Positions 19,972 through 51,412 of a DNA stretch of 64,000 bases are shown one piece after another; the stretch's first letter is position 1; every line of letters begins with the position of its first letter. The DNA comes from Gemmatimonadaceae bacterium (GTDB lineage Bacteria > Gemmatimonadota > Gemmatimonadetes > Gemmatimonadales > Gemmatimonadaceae). The stretch is from assembly GCA_020852815.1 (NCBI GenBank), contig JADZAN010000018.1, positions 1 through 64,000 on the forward strand. The letters run 5' to 3'. The notes under the pieces are model-generated. The model did no database searches and had not been told where the DNA came from. It saw nothing but the letters and a program-made list of their open reading frames with translations. A program made the position numbers and the translations under genes.

Positions 19972-22458
<2,487 letters not shown>

Positions 22459-22474: not shown

Positions 22475-24289
22475 ATGCCTAACGTCAGCCGGACGCTCGC
22501 GCTTGCCGCGACGCTGCTCCTCCCCTCGCTGCTCGCGGCCCAGACCTACCCGAGCAAGACCGACCCGCGCAACAACCTCAGGCCGGGCAAGACCGACGCC
22601 GGCGTCGCGGCGCGCAACATGCGGCTCGTCTCCAACACGCCGCGCCCCGCGGGGCTCGACACCACGCGCGGCCTCACCTTCGCCAACTCGGACCTGGCGT
22701 TCGGTGACAAGTACGTCTACCAGGGGAACTTCGCCGGCTTCTCCATCTGGGACATCAGCGAGCCGACAAAGCCGAAGCTGGTCTCCACGGTGCAGTGCAT
22801 CACCTCACAGGGCGATCCGTCGATCTACCGCAACCTGCTCTTCATTTCCGCCGAGGGAATGGGGAACCGCAACGATTGCGGCAACGGCGGGGTGAAGGAT
22901 CCCAAGGACCACATGGCGGGAGTTCGCATCTTCGACGTGTCCAATCCGGCGGCGCCGCGCCTCGTGAAGAACGTGCAGACGTGCAAGGGGTCGCACACGC
23001 ACACACTGGTCCCCAGCTACAAGGACGAGAACATCCTCTACGTGTACGTGTCGGGGAGCCAGGGGGCGCGGCAGGAGAGCGACCTCGCCGGGTGCAAGGC
23101 GGGGACCGACCCGGCCGACGAGTCGAACGCGATGTTCCGCCTCGACGTGATCAAGGTGGACCTCCGCGCGCCGGAGAAGGCAGAAGTGGTGACGGGGGCG
23201 CGCATCTTCACCGGGCTCGGCGCCGCGCCTCGCGCGGCCGGCCGGCCGGCACGCATGCGTCCGCGCGCGGCGGGTGACACCACCCAGGCCCCCGTGCCGA
23301 CGGGGCCGTGGAACTGCCACGACGTGACGGCCTATCCGGAAGCCAAGCTGCTGGCGGGCGCCTGCGCCAGCTACGGACTCCTCGTCGACATCTCCAACCC
23401 GGAAAAGCCGGTGCGCCTGGATGCGAAGGCCGACACCAACTTCTCGCTCTGGCACACCGCGGTCTTCAGCAACGACGGCAAGAAGGTGGTGTTCACCGAC
23501 GAGTGGGGGGGCGGGACGTCGCCCATGTGCCAGGCCAACTCGATGATGGAGATGGGGGGGAACACGATCCTCACGGTCGACGGGAAGAAGTCGTTCAAGC
23601 AGCGCGCCTACTTCAAGATTCCCACGGCGCAGACGGAGCAGGAGAACTGCGTATCGCACAACGGCGGGCTGATTCCGGTGCCGGGGCGCGACATCATGGT
23701 GCAGGGGTGGTACCAGGGCGGGGTGAGCGTGATGGAGTTCACCGACCCCGATCACCCGAAGGAACTCGCCTTCTTCGACCGCGGCCCGATCGACAACCCG
23801 CCGGGTGTAGACGTCCCGGTGACGCCGCAGCCGGAAGGGGCGCGTCGCGGCCAGCGCGGGACGATTGGCGGGTCGTGGGGGGCATACTACTGGAATGGAC
23901 TCGTGTACTCGTCGGAAATCGACCGCGGCTTCGACATTCTCGAGTTGGAGCCGAGTGACCAGTTGTCGAAAAACGAACTGGAAGCGGCCAAGCTCGTGCG
24001 CTTCGTGCAGTACAACCCGCAGAGCCAGCCAAGGATCGTGTGGCCGGCGGCCTTCCCGGTGGTGCGATCATACCTCGACCAGTTGGTGCGCGCACAGGGG
24101 CTCGCCGCCGATCGCACGACGGCGATCGGCAGCGCGCTCGACGCGGCCGAGGCGCAGCAGGGGAAGGGGCGCCGCGACGCGCTCGACGCGCTGGCGAAGC
24201 AGGTGGACAAGGACGTTGCCGGCGCGAAAGACTCCGCGCGCGTGAAGGCGATGTCCGACGCCATCAAGGCGCTGGCGAAGGCCAGCTAG
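22475..24289 (+). CDS. exported LVIVD-repeat beta-propeller protein (paralogue A)
   Basis: About 604 residues with a Sec signal (MPNVSRTLALAATLLLPSLL, then AAQ). LVIVD-type propeller blades recur: FSIWDISEPTKPKLVSTV, VRIFDVSNPAAPRLVKNV, LLVDISNPEKPVRLD and VSVMEFTDPDHPKEL. Conserved His/Cys-containing patches (CKGSHTHT, NCHDVTAYP, FSLWHTAVF, ENCVSHNGGLIP) could bind a metal. The C-terminus is an Ala/Lys-rich helical tail. No catalytic function is known for the family. A close paralogue lies at 24995-26791 and a more distant one at 48196-50181. The Ala/Arg/Pro-rich insert near 260-280 is specific to this copy. Confidence 0.88.
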   Translation: MPNVSRTLALAATLLLPSLLAAQTYPSKTDPRNNLRPGKTDAGVAARNMRLVSNTPRPAGLDTTRGLTFANSDLAFGDKYVYQGNFAGFSIWDISEPTKPKLVSTVQCITSQGDPSIYRNLLFISAEGMGNRNDCGNGGVKDPKDHMAGVRIFDVSNPAAPRLVKNVQTCKGSHTHTLVPSYKDENILYVYVSGSQGARQESDLAGCKAGTDPADESNAMFRLDVIKVDLRAPEKAEVVTGARIFTGLGAAPRAAGRPARMRPRAAGDTTQAPVPTGPWNCHDVTAYPEAKLLAGACASYGLLVDISNPEKPVRLDAKADTNFSLWHTAVFSNDGKKVVFTDEWGGGTSPMCQANSMMEMGGNTILTVDGKKSFKQRAYFKIPTAQTEQENCVSHNGGLIPVPGRDIMVQGWYQGGVSVMEFTDPDHPKELAFFDRGPIDNPPGVDVPVTPQPEGARRGQRGTIGGSWGAYYWNGLVYSSEIDRGFDILELEPSDQLSKNELEAAKLVRFVQYNPQSQPRIVWPAAFPVVRSYLDQLVRAQGLAADRTTAIGSALDAAEAQQGKGRRDALDALAKQVDKDVAGAKDSARVKAMSDAIKALAKAS

Positions 24290-24341
24290 CAGGGCGCGAC
24301 TACCACACCGATCTCATACCGATTCCATCAGGGCACCGGCC

Positions 24342-24947
24342 ATGTGCACCATTCGCAGTTTAGTCATCGCAACGCTTGTCGTCGTCGCCAGCCTGGCGGG
24401 GCAACCGCGATCGCTCGCCGCCCAGCACGAGGGGCATCACATGGCGGAGATCAAGGTCCCGCCCGGCGCCGCGTACACGGTGGCCGACGTGCAATTCATG
24501 CAGGGGATGATTGCGCATCACGCGCAGGCGATCCACATGTCGCGCATGGCCGAGTCGCACAAGGCGAGCCCGCGCTTGTTGCGGCTGGCGATCAAGATCG
24601 ACCAGTCGCAGGTGTCGGAGATTCGGATCATGCAGGAGTGGCTCAAGTCCAACGGGCAGGTGGCGCCCGACACGTCGTCGTGGCGCACGATGCGGATGGC
24701 GGGGATGCTGACCACGGAGCAGCTCGCGGAGCTGGACGCGGCCGCGGGGGTGCAGTTCGACCGCCTGTACCTGCGCTACATGATCATGCACCACGAAGGG
24801 GCGCTGCAGATGGTGAAGGAGCTGCTGGCCAGCCCGGGGGCGGCGCAGGAAGTCGACGTGAACGTCTTTGCCAATGACGTGGTGAGCGTGCAGACGGCCG
24901 AGATCGGGGCGATGCGGCAGATGCTGTCGCAGCTCCCCGCGAAGTGA
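24342..24947 (+). CDS. exported DUF305 protein (four-helix, His/Met-rich)
   Basis: A 201-residue exported protein with a signal peptide (MCTIRSLVIATLVVVASLAG...). The two DUF305 signatures are seen: QFMQGMIAHHAQAIHMSRM and RYMIMHHEGALQMVKEL. DUF305 is a ferritin-like four-helix family often found near copper or other metal-resistance genes; a metal-binding role is plausible but unproven. It starts 52 nt after LVIVD paralogue A and ends 47 nt before paralogue B, so all three are probably one transcript. A second DUF305-LVIVD pair is at 47432-50181. Confidence 0.9.
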   Translation: MCTIRSLVIATLVVVASLAGQPRSLAAQHEGHHMAEIKVPPGAAYTVADVQFMQGMIAHHAQAIHMSRMAESHKASPRLLRLAIKIDQSQVSEIRIMQEWLKSNGQVAPDTSSWRTMRMAGMLTTEQLAELDAAAGVQFDRLYLRYMIMHHEGALQMVKELLASPGAAQEVDVNVFANDVVSVQTAEIGAMRQMLSQLPAK

Positions 24948-24994
24948 CCGACGCTCTCGCCGGGCGTTCGCGCCCCCCTCAACCGAAGGACTCG

Positions 24995-26791
24995 ATGCCT
25001 AACGCCCGACGCTCGCTCGCCCTGGCTGCGATGCTCCTCCTCGCGTCGCCGCTCCTCCCGTTGCGGCTGGCGGCCCAAACGTACCCGAGCAAGACCGACC
25101 CGCGCTCCCGGCTCAAGCCCGGGCGCTTCGACGCCGGCGAGGCGGCCAGCAACATGCGCCTCATCTCCACCACACCCAAGCCGGGGATCCTGGACTCCAC
25201 GCGCGGCCTCACCTTCATCAGCTCGGACCTGGCCTTCGCGGGAAAGTACGTCTACCAGGGGAACTTCTCCGGCTTCACGATCTGGGACGTGAGCGACGCG
25301 GCAAAGCCGACGATCGTCTCGGCGGTGGCGTGCGTGACCTCGCAGGGCGATCCGTCCATCCATGGCAACCTGCTCTTCCTGTCGGCCGAGGGGGCGGGGA
25401 ACCGCAATGACTGCGCGAAGGGCGGATGGAAGGACCCCAAGGACCACATGGCCGGGGTCCGCATCTACGACGTCTCCAACCCGGCGCAGCCGCGGCTGAT
25501 CAAGAACGTGCAGACGTGCAAGGGGTCGCACACGCACACGATCGTCCCCAGCACGAAGGACAAGGGGATCATCTATCTCTACGTCTCGGGCTTCCAGGGG
25601 GCACGCCCGGAGGCGGAGATGCCGGGATGCCGCGAGGGGACGGACGCCGCGGACGAGACGAACTCGCTCTATCGCCTCGACATCATCAAGGTCCCGCTGG
25701 CGCACCCCGAACGGTCGGAGGTGATCACCGGGGCGCGCGTCTTCACGGGACTCGATGCGGCGCCGGCGGTGCAGGGGCGCGAGTCGTTCTTCGGGAATTC
25801 GGGGCCGCGCAACTGCCACGACGTGACGGTGTACCCGGCGGCGAAGCTGCTGGCGGGGGCGTGCGGCTCGCACGGGATCCTCGTCGACATCTCCAACCCG
25901 GAAAAGCCGATCCGGCTCGACGCGCGCACCGACACCAACTTCTCCATCTGGCATACCGCCGTCTTCTCCAACGACGGAAAGAAGGTCGTCTTCACCGACG
26001 AGTGGGGGGGCGGGACATCGCCCATGTGCCAGGCCAACTCGCCGATGGAGATGGGAGGAAACACGATCCTCACGCTCGACGCGAAGAAGAGGTTCACCCC
26101 GCACGCGTACTTCAAGATCAACACCGCACAGACGGCCGAGGAGAATTGCGTGTCGCACAACGGCGGGCTGATTCCCGTGCCGGGGCGCGACATCATGGTG
26201 CAGGGATGGTACCAGGGCGGGGTGAGCGTGATGGAGTTCACCGACCCCGATCACCCGAAGGAACTCGCCTATTTCGACCGCGGCCCGATCGACAACCCGC
26301 CGGGTGTCGACGTCCCGGTGACGCCGCAGCCCGAGGGGGCACGTCGCGGCCAGCGCGGGACGATTGGCGGGTCGTGGGGGGCGTACTACTGGAACGGCTA
26401 CATCTACTCGTCGGAACTCGACCGCGGCTTCGACATTCTCGAACTCACGCCGAGCGACCAGCTGTCGAAGAACGAGATCGAAGCGGCAAAGCTGGTGCAG
26501 TTCCGCGAGTACAACCCGCAGAGCCAACCCAGACTCGAATGGCCGGCCGCCTTCCCGGTGGTGCGGTCGTATCTCGACCAGTTGGTGCGGTGGCAGGGGC
26601 TCGACGCGACGCGCACGACGGCGATCGGGAGCGCGCTCGACGCCGCGGAAGCACAGCAAGGGGGGGCGCGCCGCGCGGCGTTGGGCGCGCTGGCGAAGCA
26701 GGTGGAGCGCGACGTTGCCGGCGCGAAGGACTCGGCGCGCGTGAAGCTGCTGGCGGACGCGATCAAGGCGCTGGCACGGGTCACGCGATAG
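24995..26791 (+). CDS. exported LVIVD-repeat beta-propeller protein (paralogue B)
   Basis: About 598 residues, closely similar to the gene at 22475-24289 over its whole length. The ATG at 24995 follows GAAGGA and opens a signal peptide (MPNARRSLALAAMLLLASPL...). An in-frame GTG at 24944, overlapping the DUF305 stop, is less likely. The blades and His/Cys patches (CKGSHTHT, NCHDVTVYP, FSIWHTAVF, ENCVSHNGG) are conserved. It lacks the Arg/Pro-rich insert of paralogue A. A middle stretch around 26155-26390 is nearly identical at DNA level to 23660-23895 of paralogue A, suggesting gene conversion or recent duplication. Confidence 0.88.
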   Translation: MPNARRSLALAAMLLLASPLLPLRLAAQTYPSKTDPRSRLKPGRFDAGEAASNMRLISTTPKPGILDSTRGLTFISSDLAFAGKYVYQGNFSGFTIWDVSDAAKPTIVSAVACVTSQGDPSIHGNLLFLSAEGAGNRNDCAKGGWKDPKDHMAGVRIYDVSNPAQPRLIKNVQTCKGSHTHTIVPSTKDKGIIYLYVSGFQGARPEAEMPGCREGTDAADETNSLYRLDIIKVPLAHPERSEVITGARVFTGLDAAPAVQGRESFFGNSGPRNCHDVTVYPAAKLLAGACGSHGILVDISNPEKPIRLDARTDTNFSIWHTAVFSNDGKKVVFTDEWGGGTSPMCQANSPMEMGGNTILTLDAKKRFTPHAYFKINTAQTAEENCVSHNGGLIPVPGRDIMVQGWYQGGVSVMEFTDPDHPKELAYFDRGPIDNPPGVDVPVTPQPEGARRGQRGTIGGSWGAYYWNGYIYSSELDRGFDILELTPSDQLSKNEIEAAKLVQFREYNPQSQPRLEWPAAFPVVRSYLDQLVRWQGLDATRTTAIGSALDAAEAQQGGARRAALGALAKQVERDVAGAKDSARVKLLADAIKALARVTR

Positions 26792-47431: not shown

Positions 47432-48103
47432 ATGAAAGCACCCGCCGTCCTCATGGCACTCGGCGCACTCGCCGCGGTGAACCTCGCCGCGTGCAGCCGC
47501 CAGCATCCGCAGACGGCAGCCCTGTCCCGCATGGGACCCGAGGCTGCCAAGGAGCGGGCGCGCGCCGACTCGCTGCGCTACCCCTACACCAAGGCCGACA
47601 TCGACTTCATGTCGGGGATGATTCACCACCACGCGCAGGCGATCCAGATCTCCAAGTGGGCCCCCTCGCATGGGGGGTCACCATCCATCATCCGCCTCAC
47701 CGAGCGCATCATCAACGCGCAGCGCGACGAGATCAACCTCATGCAGGGCTGGCTGCGCGATCGCAACCAGCTCCCCCCGGCCGCCGACACGCTCGGTACC
47801 GGGATGTCGCATGCGGGAATGCAGCACGCCGGCATGCAGCACGGCGCGTCGCCGATGATGCCGGGGATGCTCACCGATGAGCAGCTCAAGCAGCTCGACG
47901 CGGCCCGCGGCACCGAGTTCGACCGCCTGTTCCTGACCTTCATGATCCAGCACCACCGCGGTGCCGTGACCATGGTGAAGGAACTCTTCGCCGCGCGCGG
48001 CGCCGGCCAGGACGAGACCGTCTTCAAGTTCGCCGCCGACGTCGAGGTCGACCAGTCGACAGAGATTCGCCGCATGCTGCAGATGCTCCTGGAACTTCCC
48101 TGA
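47432..48103 (+). CDS. DUF305 lipoprotein (four-helix, His/Met-rich)
   Basis: A 223-residue lipoprotein (MKAPAVLMALGALAAVNLAAC) with both DUF305 signatures: DFMSGMIHHHAQAIQISKW and TFMIQHHRGAVTMVKEL. Between them is a Met/His repeat (MSHAGMQHAGMQHGA) typical of copper-binding peptides. It is therefore a good candidate for a copper or other soft-metal binding protein at the outer or inner membrane surface. It lies 92 nt before an LVIVD gene, mirroring the pair at 24342-26791. The start at 47432 is chosen for the signal peptide. Confidence 0.92.
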   Translation: MKAPAVLMALGALAAVNLAACSRQHPQTAALSRMGPEAAKERARADSLRYPYTKADIDFMSGMIHHHAQAIQISKWAPSHGGSPSIIRLTERIINAQRDEINLMQGWLRDRNQLPPAADTLGTGMSHAGMQHAGMQHGASPMMPGMLTDEQLKQLDAARGTEFDRLFLTFMIQHHRGAVTMVKELFAARGAGQDETVFKFAADVEVDQSTEIRRMLQMLLELP

Positions 48104-48195
48104 GTTAGTCAGTCGGCCGCGCCCGCGCGGCCACCACGCAACGGTTCGCTTCGTCCCATTCGCTCACCAACCCCCTCATGAGAGAGAAGCCCCGA

Positions 48196-50181
48196 ATGCA
48201 CGCTCCCCGCCTCACCTCCCGCTTCGTGCTCGCCGCGGCGCTCGTCGCCATGGCGTCGTGCGCAAGCAACCCGCCCGCGACCACGCCGGAGCCGGTTCGC
48301 GATCCGCGCCTGGACTCGCGCGTCGGCCTCAAGGCCGGCCTCATGGATGCCGGCGAAGCGGTCTCCAACCTCAAGGTCGTCTCCAAGGCCGTCTCCCCCG
48401 AGGGCTTCCTCGGCATCACCAACTCCGACCTCGCGTTCACGGGGAACTACGTGATCCAGGGGAACTACAACGGGCCGGTGATCTGGGACATCAGCAACCC
48501 GGCGCGCCCGCAACTGGTCACGGCGTACCCGTGCCCCGCCTCGCAGAACGACGTCTCGGTCTACAAGAACCTCATGTTCATGTCGGCTGAGGCCAACAAC
48601 GGGCGAGTGGACTGCATGCCGGGCGGCGTGGCCGACACGGTGAGCGCGCAGCGCTTCCGCGGCGTGCGCGTCTTCGACATCAGCGACATCAAGACGCCGA
48701 AGCTCGTGGCCAACGTCCAGACGTGCCGCGGCTCGCACACGCACACGGTAGTCGAGAGCCCGAAGGACCCGGAGAACATCTACATCTACGTCTCCGGTTC
48801 GGCCGGCGTGCGCTCCCCTAACGAGTTGTCGCGCTGCAAGCGCGAGACGCCGGACAAGGAGTCCAACTCGGCGTTGCTCAAGATCGAGATCATCAAGGTT
48901 CCGCTGGCGGCGCCCGAGCGTTCCGAAGTGGTCAACGCCGCCGACATCTTCAGCGGGCTGACCTACACGCCCACGCACGCACCGGGTGAGGAAGACCTCG
49001 CGGCGGCGTCCAAGGCGGCCGCCGAGGCGCGCGCCAAGGGTGGCTTCACGGCCAAGGTCCCGTCGTCGGGGCAGGAGATGGTGCTGGGCGGGCAGTTCAT
49101 CAAGGTGCAGCTGGACAGCATCGTGAAGGCGCGCGGCGGGAGCGGTGCCCCCACGGCCGCCGACTCGGCGGCGCTGCGCAGCGGGCTGCAGGGGATCGTG
49201 AACCACATGTTCGGCTCGGCGCCGCAGCCCGGTTCGCCGATCAACCCGGGGCGGCAGTGCCACGACATCACCGTCTATCCGGCGTTAGGGCTGGCCGGCG
49301 GTGCCTGCGAAGGGCACGGCCTGCTGCTCGACATCTCCGACCCCGTGCATCCCGTGCGTCTCGACGCCGTGGCCGACTCGAACTTTGCCTATTGGCACTC
49401 GGCCACCTTCAACAACGACGGGACCAAGCTTCTCTTTTCGGACGAGTGGGGCGGCGGCGGCGCCCCGAAGTGCCGCGCCACCGACAAGGCGGAGTGGGGC
49501 TCGGACGCGATCTTCACCATCGAGAATCGCAAGCTCAAGTTCCAGTCGTACTACAAGATCCCGACCATCCAGACCTCGGCCGAGAACTGCGTGGCGCACA
49601 ACGGCTCGCTCATCCCGATTCCCGGGCGCGACGTGATGGTGCAGGCGTGGTACCAGGGCGGGATCTCGGTCTTCGACTGGACCGATGCCAAGAACCCGAA
49701 GGAGATCGCCTACTTCGACCGCGGCCCCGTCGATTCGACGCAGATGCGCATGGGCGGGTCGTGGTCGGTGTACTGGTACAACGGCTCGATCGTGAGTTCG
49801 GAGATTGCGCGCGGCATGGACGTCGCCGACCTGGTGCCGTCGCAATACATCTCGCAGAACGAAATCGACGCGGCCAAGACGGTGAAGTGGACGCACCTCA
49901 ATGCGCAGGGGCAGCCGCTGATTGCGTGGCCGCCGAGCTTTGCCCTGGCCCGCGCCTTTGTCGACCAGCTCGAGCGCAACAAGTGCCTCTCGACCGCTCG
50001 CATCAGCGAGGTGCGCACCGCGCTCTCGAACGCGGAGAAGGCGGCACCGATGCAACGCTCCTCACAGTTGGGGACGCTGGCCGGGCAGTTGGAGAGCGAC
50101 GCCCGTTCGTCGTGCGACCCTAACCGGGCCAAGCTTCTGCTCAAGGCGGTGCAGGACCTGCAGCACGCGACGGTGTCGTAA
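48196..50181 (+). CDS. LVIVD-repeat beta-propeller lipoprotein (paralogue C)
   Basis: About 661 residues, from an ATG preceded by GAGAGAAG, with a lipobox (VAMASC). Blades match paralogues A and B: PVIWDISNPARPQLVTAY, VRVFDISDIKTPKLVANV, LLLDISDPVHPVRLD and ISVFDWTDAKNPKEI. The same His/Cys patches occur (CRGSHTHT, QCHDITVYP, FAYWHSATF, ENCVAHNGSLIP). It has its own Ala/Lys-rich insert of about 90 residues in the middle (around 265-350) and is lipid-anchored where A and B have Sec signals. It follows DUF305 and precedes a CuNIR-like gene, so a redox or metal-related envelope role is suggested by context only. Confidence 0.9.
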   Translation: MHAPRLTSRFVLAAALVAMASCASNPPATTPEPVRDPRLDSRVGLKAGLMDAGEAVSNLKVVSKAVSPEGFLGITNSDLAFTGNYVIQGNYNGPVIWDISNPARPQLVTAYPCPASQNDVSVYKNLMFMSAEANNGRVDCMPGGVADTVSAQRFRGVRVFDISDIKTPKLVANVQTCRGSHTHTVVESPKDPENIYIYVSGSAGVRSPNELSRCKRETPDKESNSALLKIEIIKVPLAAPERSEVVNAADIFSGLTYTPTHAPGEEDLAAASKAAAEARAKGGFTAKVPSSGQEMVLGGQFIKVQLDSIVKARGGSGAPTAADSAALRSGLQGIVNHMFGSAPQPGSPINPGRQCHDITVYPALGLAGGACEGHGLLLDISDPVHPVRLDAVADSNFAYWHSATFNNDGTKLLFSDEWGGGGAPKCRATDKAEWGSDAIFTIENRKLKFQSYYKIPTIQTSAENCVAHNGSLIPIPGRDVMVQAWYQGGISVFDWTDAKNPKEIAYFDRGPVDSTQMRMGGSWSVYWYNGSIVSSEIARGMDVADLVPSQYISQNEIDAAKTVKWTHLNAQGQPLIAWPPSFALARAFVDQLERNKCLSTARISEVRTALSNAEKAAPMQRSSQLGTLAGQLESDARSSCDPNRAKLLLKAVQDLQHATVS

Positions 50182-50356: not shown

Positions 50357-51412
50357 ATGTCCCGCCCGAATCTCGCGCTCGTCGCGACCGCGCTCATTGC
50401 GGTCATCTCCATGGCTGCGTGCCAGCAGTCGCCGGGCGGGAAGCGTGGCGAGGAGCGCACGCCGTCGGGGTTGCCACCGTCATCGACGACGTCACCGGCG
50501 TCGTCCGCATCGCAGGCGCCTACGCGCATTCCCGCGAACATCTCGCATGGAGAGGCGCCGGTGGGAACGGCGGCTGACTCGGCACCCGTGGACCCCGTCG
50601 TTCCGCCGCGCTCGACGGATCGCCTGCATCGCGTGCGCTTCGAGATCGTCGACACCATCATCGCGGTCGCGCCGTCGGTGCAATACCGCGCGTGGACCTT
50701 CCAGTCGCGCGTCCCGGGGCCGGTGGTGCGCGTGACGCAGGGCGACGAGATCGAGTTCACCCTCGTCAACCGCGGGAGCATCGCGCACAGCATGGACTTC
50801 CACGCCGCGCAGATCGCGCCCAGCAAGTACTACGTGAACATCCTCCCGGGCGACTCGATCCACTATCGGTTCACGGCCGAGGTAGCGGGCGCCTTCATGT
50901 ACCACTGCGGCACCGCACCGGTGGCCGCACACATCGCGAACGGCATGTACGGAGCGCTGATCGTGGACCCGCCGGGGCTGCGACGCGCGGCGAAGGAACT
51001 GGTCTTCGTGCAGAGCGAGTTCTACATGACGGCCAATCCCACCGGTCCCCGGTCGCTGGCGTGGGATCGCCTGCTGGGGCTGGCGCCAGACTACGTGACG
51101 TTCAACGGGCGCGCCGCGCAGTACGCCACGCACCCCATCCGGGTCAAGGTGAACGATCTGGTGCGCATCTACCTCGTGAATGCAGGTCCCAACCGCTTCT
51201 CGTCGTTCCACGTCGTTGGAGGGATCTTCGAACGCGTCTTCGTGGATGGCTCGCAGCGCTCCCCGCTGGAGGGGGTGCAGACGGTGGCGGTTCCGGTCGG
51301 AGGCGGATCGATCTTCGAGATCCGCCTCAAGCAGCCCGGGGAGTACCCGTTCGTCACCCACGCGTTTGCCGATGCGACCAAGGGGGCGGTGGGGGTGCTG
51401 CTGGCCGAGTGA
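50357..51412 (+). CDS. copper nitrite-reductase-like two-cupredoxin lipoprotein
   Basis: About 351 residues, with lipobox ISMAAC and a Ser/Pro/Thr-rich linker to about 85. All copper ligands of the NirK pattern are visible. Type 1: His144, Cys184, His192 and Met197 (MYHC...AAHIANGM). Type 2: His149 in DFHAAQ, His183 and His285 in SSFHVVGG. The proton-donor Asp147 is also present. The second cupredoxin ends with EYPFVTHAFADATKGAVG. Reduction of nitrite to NO is the best guess, but the family also includes oxidases with the same motifs. The Cys-to-His spacing is one residue shorter than in classical NirK. It lies downstream of the LVIVD/DUF305 pair. Confidence 0.88.
   Translation: MSRPNLALVATALIAVISMAACQQSPGGKRGEERTPSGLPPSSTTSPASSASQAPTRIPANISHGEAPVGTAADSAPVDPVVPPRSTDRLHRVRFEIVDTIIAVAPSVQYRAWTFQSRVPGPVVRVTQGDEIEFTLVNRGSIAHSMDFHAAQIAPSKYYVNILPGDSIHYRFTAEVAGAFMYHCGTAPVAAHIANGMYGALIVDPPGLRRAAKELVFVQSEFYMTANPTGPRSLAWDRLLGLAPDYVTFNGRAAQYATHPIRVKVNDLVRIYLVNAGPNRFSSFHVVGGIFERVFVDGSQRSPLEGVQTVAVPVGGGSIFEIRLKQPGEYPFVTHAFADATKGAVGVLLAE

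Follow-up and report, generated by a model that had tools for sequence, protein, structure and literature searches.

The haloalkylphosphorus hydrolase of Sphingobium sp. TCM1 is a phosphotriesterase, Sb-PTE, built as a propeller (PDB 5HRM). The DUF305 protein CopM of Synechocystis is a copper-binding protein that confers protection against copper; its gene neighbours are a two-component system and copper resistance genes, not a propeller (PMC4335983). Methanethiol oxidase (MTO), related to SBP56, is a copper propeller with an adjacent chaperone gene, and occurs with SCO1 and MauG rather than with DUF305 (PMC5739008). Proteins of the DUF305, LVIVD and choice-of-anchor B families are common among bacteria, mostly without an assigned role; in the literature searched, we found no mention of LVIVD and DUF305 together, nor the term choice-of-anchor B. 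Here, we describe a stretch of 64,000 nucleotides (the window, on contig C18 of a 5.38 Mb Gemmatimonadota genome), in which genes for LVIVD propellers stand next to genes for DUF305 proteins. By computation, we found that the two families are paired and in one case fused, that the LVIVD protein folds as a seven-bladed propeller, and that six of its residues are conserved. These are predicted to make up one site that corresponds, blade for blade, to the binuclear metal site of Sb-PTE, a match that is partly shown. It is fair to say that this type of site is already known from one enzyme, Sb-PTE, whereas no DUF305-LVIVD unit was known.

With middling confidence, we interpret DUF305 and the long form of LVIVD as a two-protein exported unit, consisting of a binuclear metallohydrolase propeller and a dedicated, CopM-like metal carrier. 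LVIVD would be a seven-bladed propeller enzyme with an axial binuclear metal site formed by Asp119, His181, His275, His320, Glu336 and His388 (LVIVD2 numbering). Most likely, it would activate water and hydrolyse a phosphoester or a related ester outside the cytoplasm, which we propose because the arrangement of the site is that of Sb-PTE. The Met- and His-rich DUF305 carrier would most likely load the site with metal, be it Mn, Zn or Cu, or guard it against the wrong metal. Both hydrolysis and metal transfer are inferred. The genes in the window are:

22475..24289, + strand: LVIVD1, exported seven-bladed propeller with a C-terminal helical domain, 604 aa; Pfam LVIVD E 3e-9; 78% identical to LVIVD2
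24342..24947, + strand: DUF305a, exported protein resembling CopM, two HH motifs, 201 aa; Pfam DUF305 E 9e-39; matches the solved CopM 5fej with E 7.5e-13
24995..26791, + strand: LVIVD2, exported seven-bladed propeller with a C-terminal helical domain, 598 aa; Pfam LVIVD E 2e-8; AlphaFold2 pLDDT (predicted local distance difference test) 89.5, pTM (predicted template modelling score) 0.92
47432..48103, + strand: DUF305b, exported, with a lipobox-like LAAC, CopM family, 223 aa; Pfam DUF305 E 2e-41; NCBIfam CopM 92.8 bits, cut-off 90
48178..50181, + strand: LVIVD3, exported propeller whose blades 3 and 4 are separated by an insert, 667 aa; Pfam LVIVD E 4e-6; all site residues kept

The preliminary description of this DNA had recognised two exported LVIVD propellers flanking an exported DUF305 protein, as well as a further DUF305-LVIVD pair at 47432-50181, and both proved correct. 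LVIVD1, LVIVD2 and LVIVD3 score 36.5, 33.9 and 26.6 bits with Pfam LVIVD (PF08309), above the curated cut-off of 20.2, while DUF305a and DUF305b reach 133 and 142 bits with Pfam DUF305 (PF03713; cut-off 27). The N-termini of all five proteins look like signal peptides, as judged by eye.

The association of the two families is seen throughout the phylum. In 101 Gemmatimonadota genomes of at least 90% completeness, counting DUF305 above the family cut-off and LVIVD in its long form, both families occur in the identical 88 genomes and neither in the identical 13. The source genome has five long LVIVD genes and four DUF305 genes, all four of which adjoin a long LVIVD; the pair on its contig C39 is interrupted by a gene for a lactonase-like propeller that is read from the other strand (L009 2039-3307, - strand). 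Scanning public genomes yielded 80 loci; DUF305 adjoins a propeller in 77 of 86 sources, a count in which the window and a few mutually overlapping stretches of its own genome are included. The sources lacking adjacency are mostly cut at contig ends; three (L028, L041 and L052) have no DUF305 nearby. At least 115 of the best 150 DUF305 matches have one of the best 150 LVIVD matches within 3 kb, on the same strand in 115 of 115 cases and with DUF305 upstream in 109. Some loci carry two or three tandem propellers (L067, L069, L075); at L075 (6058-11846), one DUF305 gene is followed by three of them. Among the fetched loci, we found no third gene family that is conserved beside the pair, and the unit comprises these two genes only. 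Lipoprotein or soluble state shows no association within pairs (Fisher p 1.0, using a crude lipobox rule). The pairing of DUF305 and LVIVD is not due to chance.

Outside the phylum, the pair is also present in Acidobacteriota, Nonomuraea and Maricaulis. DUF305 lies upstream of LVIVD, with both genes on the same strand, in Gemmatimonadota, Acidobacteriota and Maricaulis; the two genes are divergent in Nonomuraea. DUF305 occurs in 24 of 142 alphaproteobacterial genomes, which together hold only three high-scoring, full-length, two-HH DUF305 matches: two have a long LVIVD as their neighbour, and the third forms a single protein with one. The fusion (L173 3005-5422, seen first in L143) is a single open reading frame specifying a signal peptide, a DUF305 domain with both HH motifs and an LVIVD propeller with all motifs. 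Short, partial or weaker alphaproteobacterial DUF305 matches have no LVIVD within 1.5 kb. DUF305 without LVIVD was found in Rhodococcus, where it lies beside CopC and a CopY-type regulator, and in Streptomyces; therefore, DUF305 is a general family, one form of which is tied to the propeller. Moreover, a plasmid-borne gene for an Sb-PTE-like protein is followed by DUF305 in Paraburkholderia megapolitana (a full DUF305 domain) and in Tsukamurella tyrosinosolvens, and these plasmid neighbours link DUF305 to the wider propeller class. The Tsukamurella Sb-PTE-like gene (L176 3866-5418) is annotated as two overlapping open reading frames, which reflects either a frameshift or an annotation split.

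Could DUF305 and LVIVD be neighbours merely by inherited gene order, with no joint function? Some LVIVD and DUF305 copies do seem solitary among the matches listed, and the mirror-tree correlation of 0.88 is uncorrected for species descent. We nevertheless consider this very improbable, given the identical presence and absence of the two families across the 101 genomes, the adjacency kept in several phyla in same-strand, divergent and reversed orders, and the fusion into one reading frame. The same co-occurrence, adjacency and fusion strongly back the earlier proposal of a working unit. That proposal had called for a neighbourhood analysis across the phylum: once carried out, it did not find DUF305 and LVIVD apart in most related genomes.

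The AlphaFold2 model of LVIVD2, computed from 75 sequences, has the confidence scores listed above and shows seven blades that an N-terminal strand closes, together with a helical domain at the C terminus. Its top PDB match in Foldseek is 5HRM (E 4e-14), the next unrelated entry following at 2e-8. Likewise, 5HRM (E 1.9e-4) and its relative 5ioj (E 3.8e-4) are the only convincing matches of the LVIVD family profile to the PDB. A direct hhalign comparison of LVIVD with four Sb-PTE sequences gave an E of 2.5e-13 over 294 columns, and 6.6e-12 when the ligand columns were masked. LVIVD also aligns with choice-of-anchor B (TIGR04312; E 9.5e-13), a homologous propeller in which all six site residues are paired, and choice-of-anchor B in turn with Sb-PTE (E 4e-12). 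With 30.5, 27.3 and 67.9 bits against a TIGR04312 cut-off of 100, LVIVD1, LVIVD2 and LVIVD3 are related to that family but are not members, and unlike LVIVD, choice-of-anchor B has no DUF305 link shown.

Sb-PTE is the closest relative with a known site. LVIVD resembles it in its seven blades, the acidic residue in blade 2, the His residues in blades 3-6 and the Glu after strand B of blade 5. LVIVD differs from it in sequence (about 23% identity), in an invariant extra His (H179), in having more Cys and in the C-terminal helical domain, which Sb-PTE lacks. A Cys after the site Glu and an ENC motif opening blade 6 are common to both, which suggests a shared disulfide. The two-metal ligands of 5HRM we take to be E201, H258, H317, H389, E407 and H475. 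This list is supported by a plasmid copy of Sb-PTE (L114, 583 aa), because the residue types in it fit the numbering: positions 201, 258, 317, 389 and 407 are E, H, H, H and E. In the alignment of choice-of-anchor B with Sb-PTE, the His of GSHFND is numbered 475. The predicted LVIVD2 counterparts, with conservation counted over 75 non-redundant LVIVD relatives, are:

25349..25351, + strand: D119, blade 2, in the place of Sb-PTE E201 (to within about 2 residues); 75/75; pairs with choice-of-anchor B D88
25535..25537, + strand: H181 (SHTHT), blade 3, in the place of H258; 74/75; linked via choice-of-anchor B H139
25817..25819, + strand: H275 (NCHDVT), blade 4, in the place of H317; 74/75, the other row having X; linked via choice-of-anchor B H197
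25952..25954, + strand: H320 (WHTA), blade 5, in the place of H389; 75/75; direct hhalign pairing
26000..26002, + strand: E336 (TDEWGG), blade 5, in the place of E407; 75/75; direct hhalign pairing
26156..26158, + strand: H388 (ENCVSHNGG), blade 6, in the place of H475; 75/75; equal spacing to the next GG strand in both families

In the model, the site His residues lie at or beside the start of the innermost strand of their blades. The choice-of-anchor B residues that hhalign pairs with the LVIVD site are D88, H139, H197, H251, E267 and H306; H139, H197 and E267 pair in turn with Sb-PTE H258, H317 and E407. The preliminary description had noted His/Cys patches in the propellers, and every motif it quoted is present, although the His patches, together with D119 and E336, appear to form one site and not several. 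Its suggestion of metal handling is upheld to the extent that an Sb-PTE-like six-ligand site and a CopM-family partner imply it. Choice-of-anchor B genes are expanded in G015, G056 and other genomes of one family, with up to 26 matches per genome; 13 of the 13 sequences examined from these expansions carry the same six-residue site.

A different identity for the propeller is that of an exported copper oxidoreductase like SBP56/MTO, to which DUF305 would supply copper in the way assumed for SCO1 and MTO. Several points favour it: by analogy, SBP56/MTO combines a propeller that has a His metal site with an adjacent metal chaperone gene, the copper residues of SELENBP1 include His, Asp and Glu (PMC10362175), the linked DUF305 belongs to the copper-binding CopM family (PMC4335983) and has kept four His together with at least seven Met that are invariant, and 2ece is among the Foldseek matches of the LVIVD2 model (E 9e-8). 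Homology is where this candidate failed. Profile comparison of LVIVD with SBP56 gave a probability of 6% over 42 columns, with the ligands unpaired, and the Pfam SBP56 score is 11.5 bits against a cut-off of 34; the links of LVIVD to Sb-PTE and choice-of-anchor B are far stronger. In addition, the absence of a third conserved family means that no MauG or SCO1 partner was seen, although these two were not searched by name. We judge a copper oxidoreductase unlikely, and copper redox chemistry less likely than hydrolysis. The redox role raised in the preliminary description is not supported: homology to the copper oxidase SBP56/MTO is too weak to be of use, and Sb-PTE, the nearest relative whose site is known, is a hydrolase.

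The DUF305 partner resembles CopM in being two-HH, Met-rich and exported. In the NCBIfam CopM model (NF049983), DUF305b exceeds the cut-off, as listed, and DUF305a, at 74.6 bits, stays below it. The LVIVD-linked proteins share at least seven invariant Met (M56, M97, M119, M122, M147, M157 and M191), and both HH motifs, located in DUF305a as follows:

24516..24521, + strand: first HH motif (H59 H60); invariant in 79 LVIVD-linked DUF305 sequences
24789..24794, + strand: second HH motif (H150 H151); invariant in 79 LVIVD-linked DUF305 sequences

DUF305 proteins elsewhere occur in copper-resistance clusters (PMC3707914; PMC4335983), and the pair might accordingly serve copper defence or copper scavenging, both proteins binding copper outside the cytoplasm and neither being an enzyme. 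We find this rather improbable. Neither a copper exporter nor CopC nor a metal regulator was found to accompany the pair consistently, and six strictly conserved ligands on the axis, with a Glu following strand B, are characteristic of catalysis rather than of a sponge. Furthermore, several paralogous pairs per genome would better fit enzymes of differing substrates.

Several points weigh against the metallohydrolase reading that we favour. VIA-align, in its first 50 rows, puts mainly generic WD40 propellers on top and does not include 5HRM; because of this, the fold by itself is not specific, and the case for likeness to Sb-PTE rests on residues, not on fold alone. In the N-terminal half, hhalign of LVIVD with Sb-PTE slips by one blade (H181 on H317), so the N-terminal equivalences rest on blade counting and on the choice-of-anchor B bridge; the blade-2 ligand can be placed to within about 2 residues. 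When LVIVD, choice-of-anchor B and Sb-PTE were simply merged with MAFFT, the ligands of the three families failed to line up. No DUF305 neighbour was found for the Sb-PTE gene of Sphingobium. The main tension lies in the metal: DUF305 looks like a Cu(I) carrier, a poor fit for loading a Mn or Zn hydrolase, whereas the metal in 5HRM is manganese.

In a wider reading, for and against which we see the case as about evenly balanced, long LVIVD, choice-of-anchor B and Sb-PTE would constitute a single superfamily, so far undescribed, of exported propeller enzymes that carry a binuclear metal site; part of it would receive its metal from a dedicated DUF305 partner. Should the six residues form a metal site, the proteins of all three families, DUF305, LVIVD and choice-of-anchor B, could be tested for roles as enzymes or as partners of enzymes. 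The organophosphate hydrolase Sb-PTE, which has been studied, would then be placed in a natural family, and DUF305 would acquire a defined client. If the superfamily holds, its natural members would point to the origin of the flame-retardant-degrading phosphotriesterase of Sphingobium.

Within the window, the first cluster holds a tandem duplicate, LVIVD1 and LVIVD2 sharing 78% identity; between LVIVD3 and LVIVD1, identity is 48%. LVIVD1, DUF305a and LVIVD2 are co-directional, with intergenic gaps of 52 and 47 bp, and DUF305b and LVIVD3 are separated by 74 bp. The single transcript presumed earlier for the first three genes agrees with the shared strand and short gaps, but scans for promoters and terminators gave no sigma-70 or terminator pattern above chance level; co-transcription is deduced from the gene spacing alone. 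The C-terminal helical domain is well conserved among LVIVD proteins, and no solved fold in the PDB matched it:

26450..26788, + strand: LVIVD2 C-terminal helical domain; model pLDDT 92.5; no PDB match better than E 3

Immediately downstream of LVIVD3 lies a gene for a two-domain cupredoxin related to copper nitrite reductase (50429-51412, + strand); it scores 188 bits with TIGR02376, under the cut-off of 296, and is not conserved beside the DUF305-LVIVD pair. Divergent from LVIVD1 is a gene for a KatG-like catalase-peroxidase (19972-22272, - strand).

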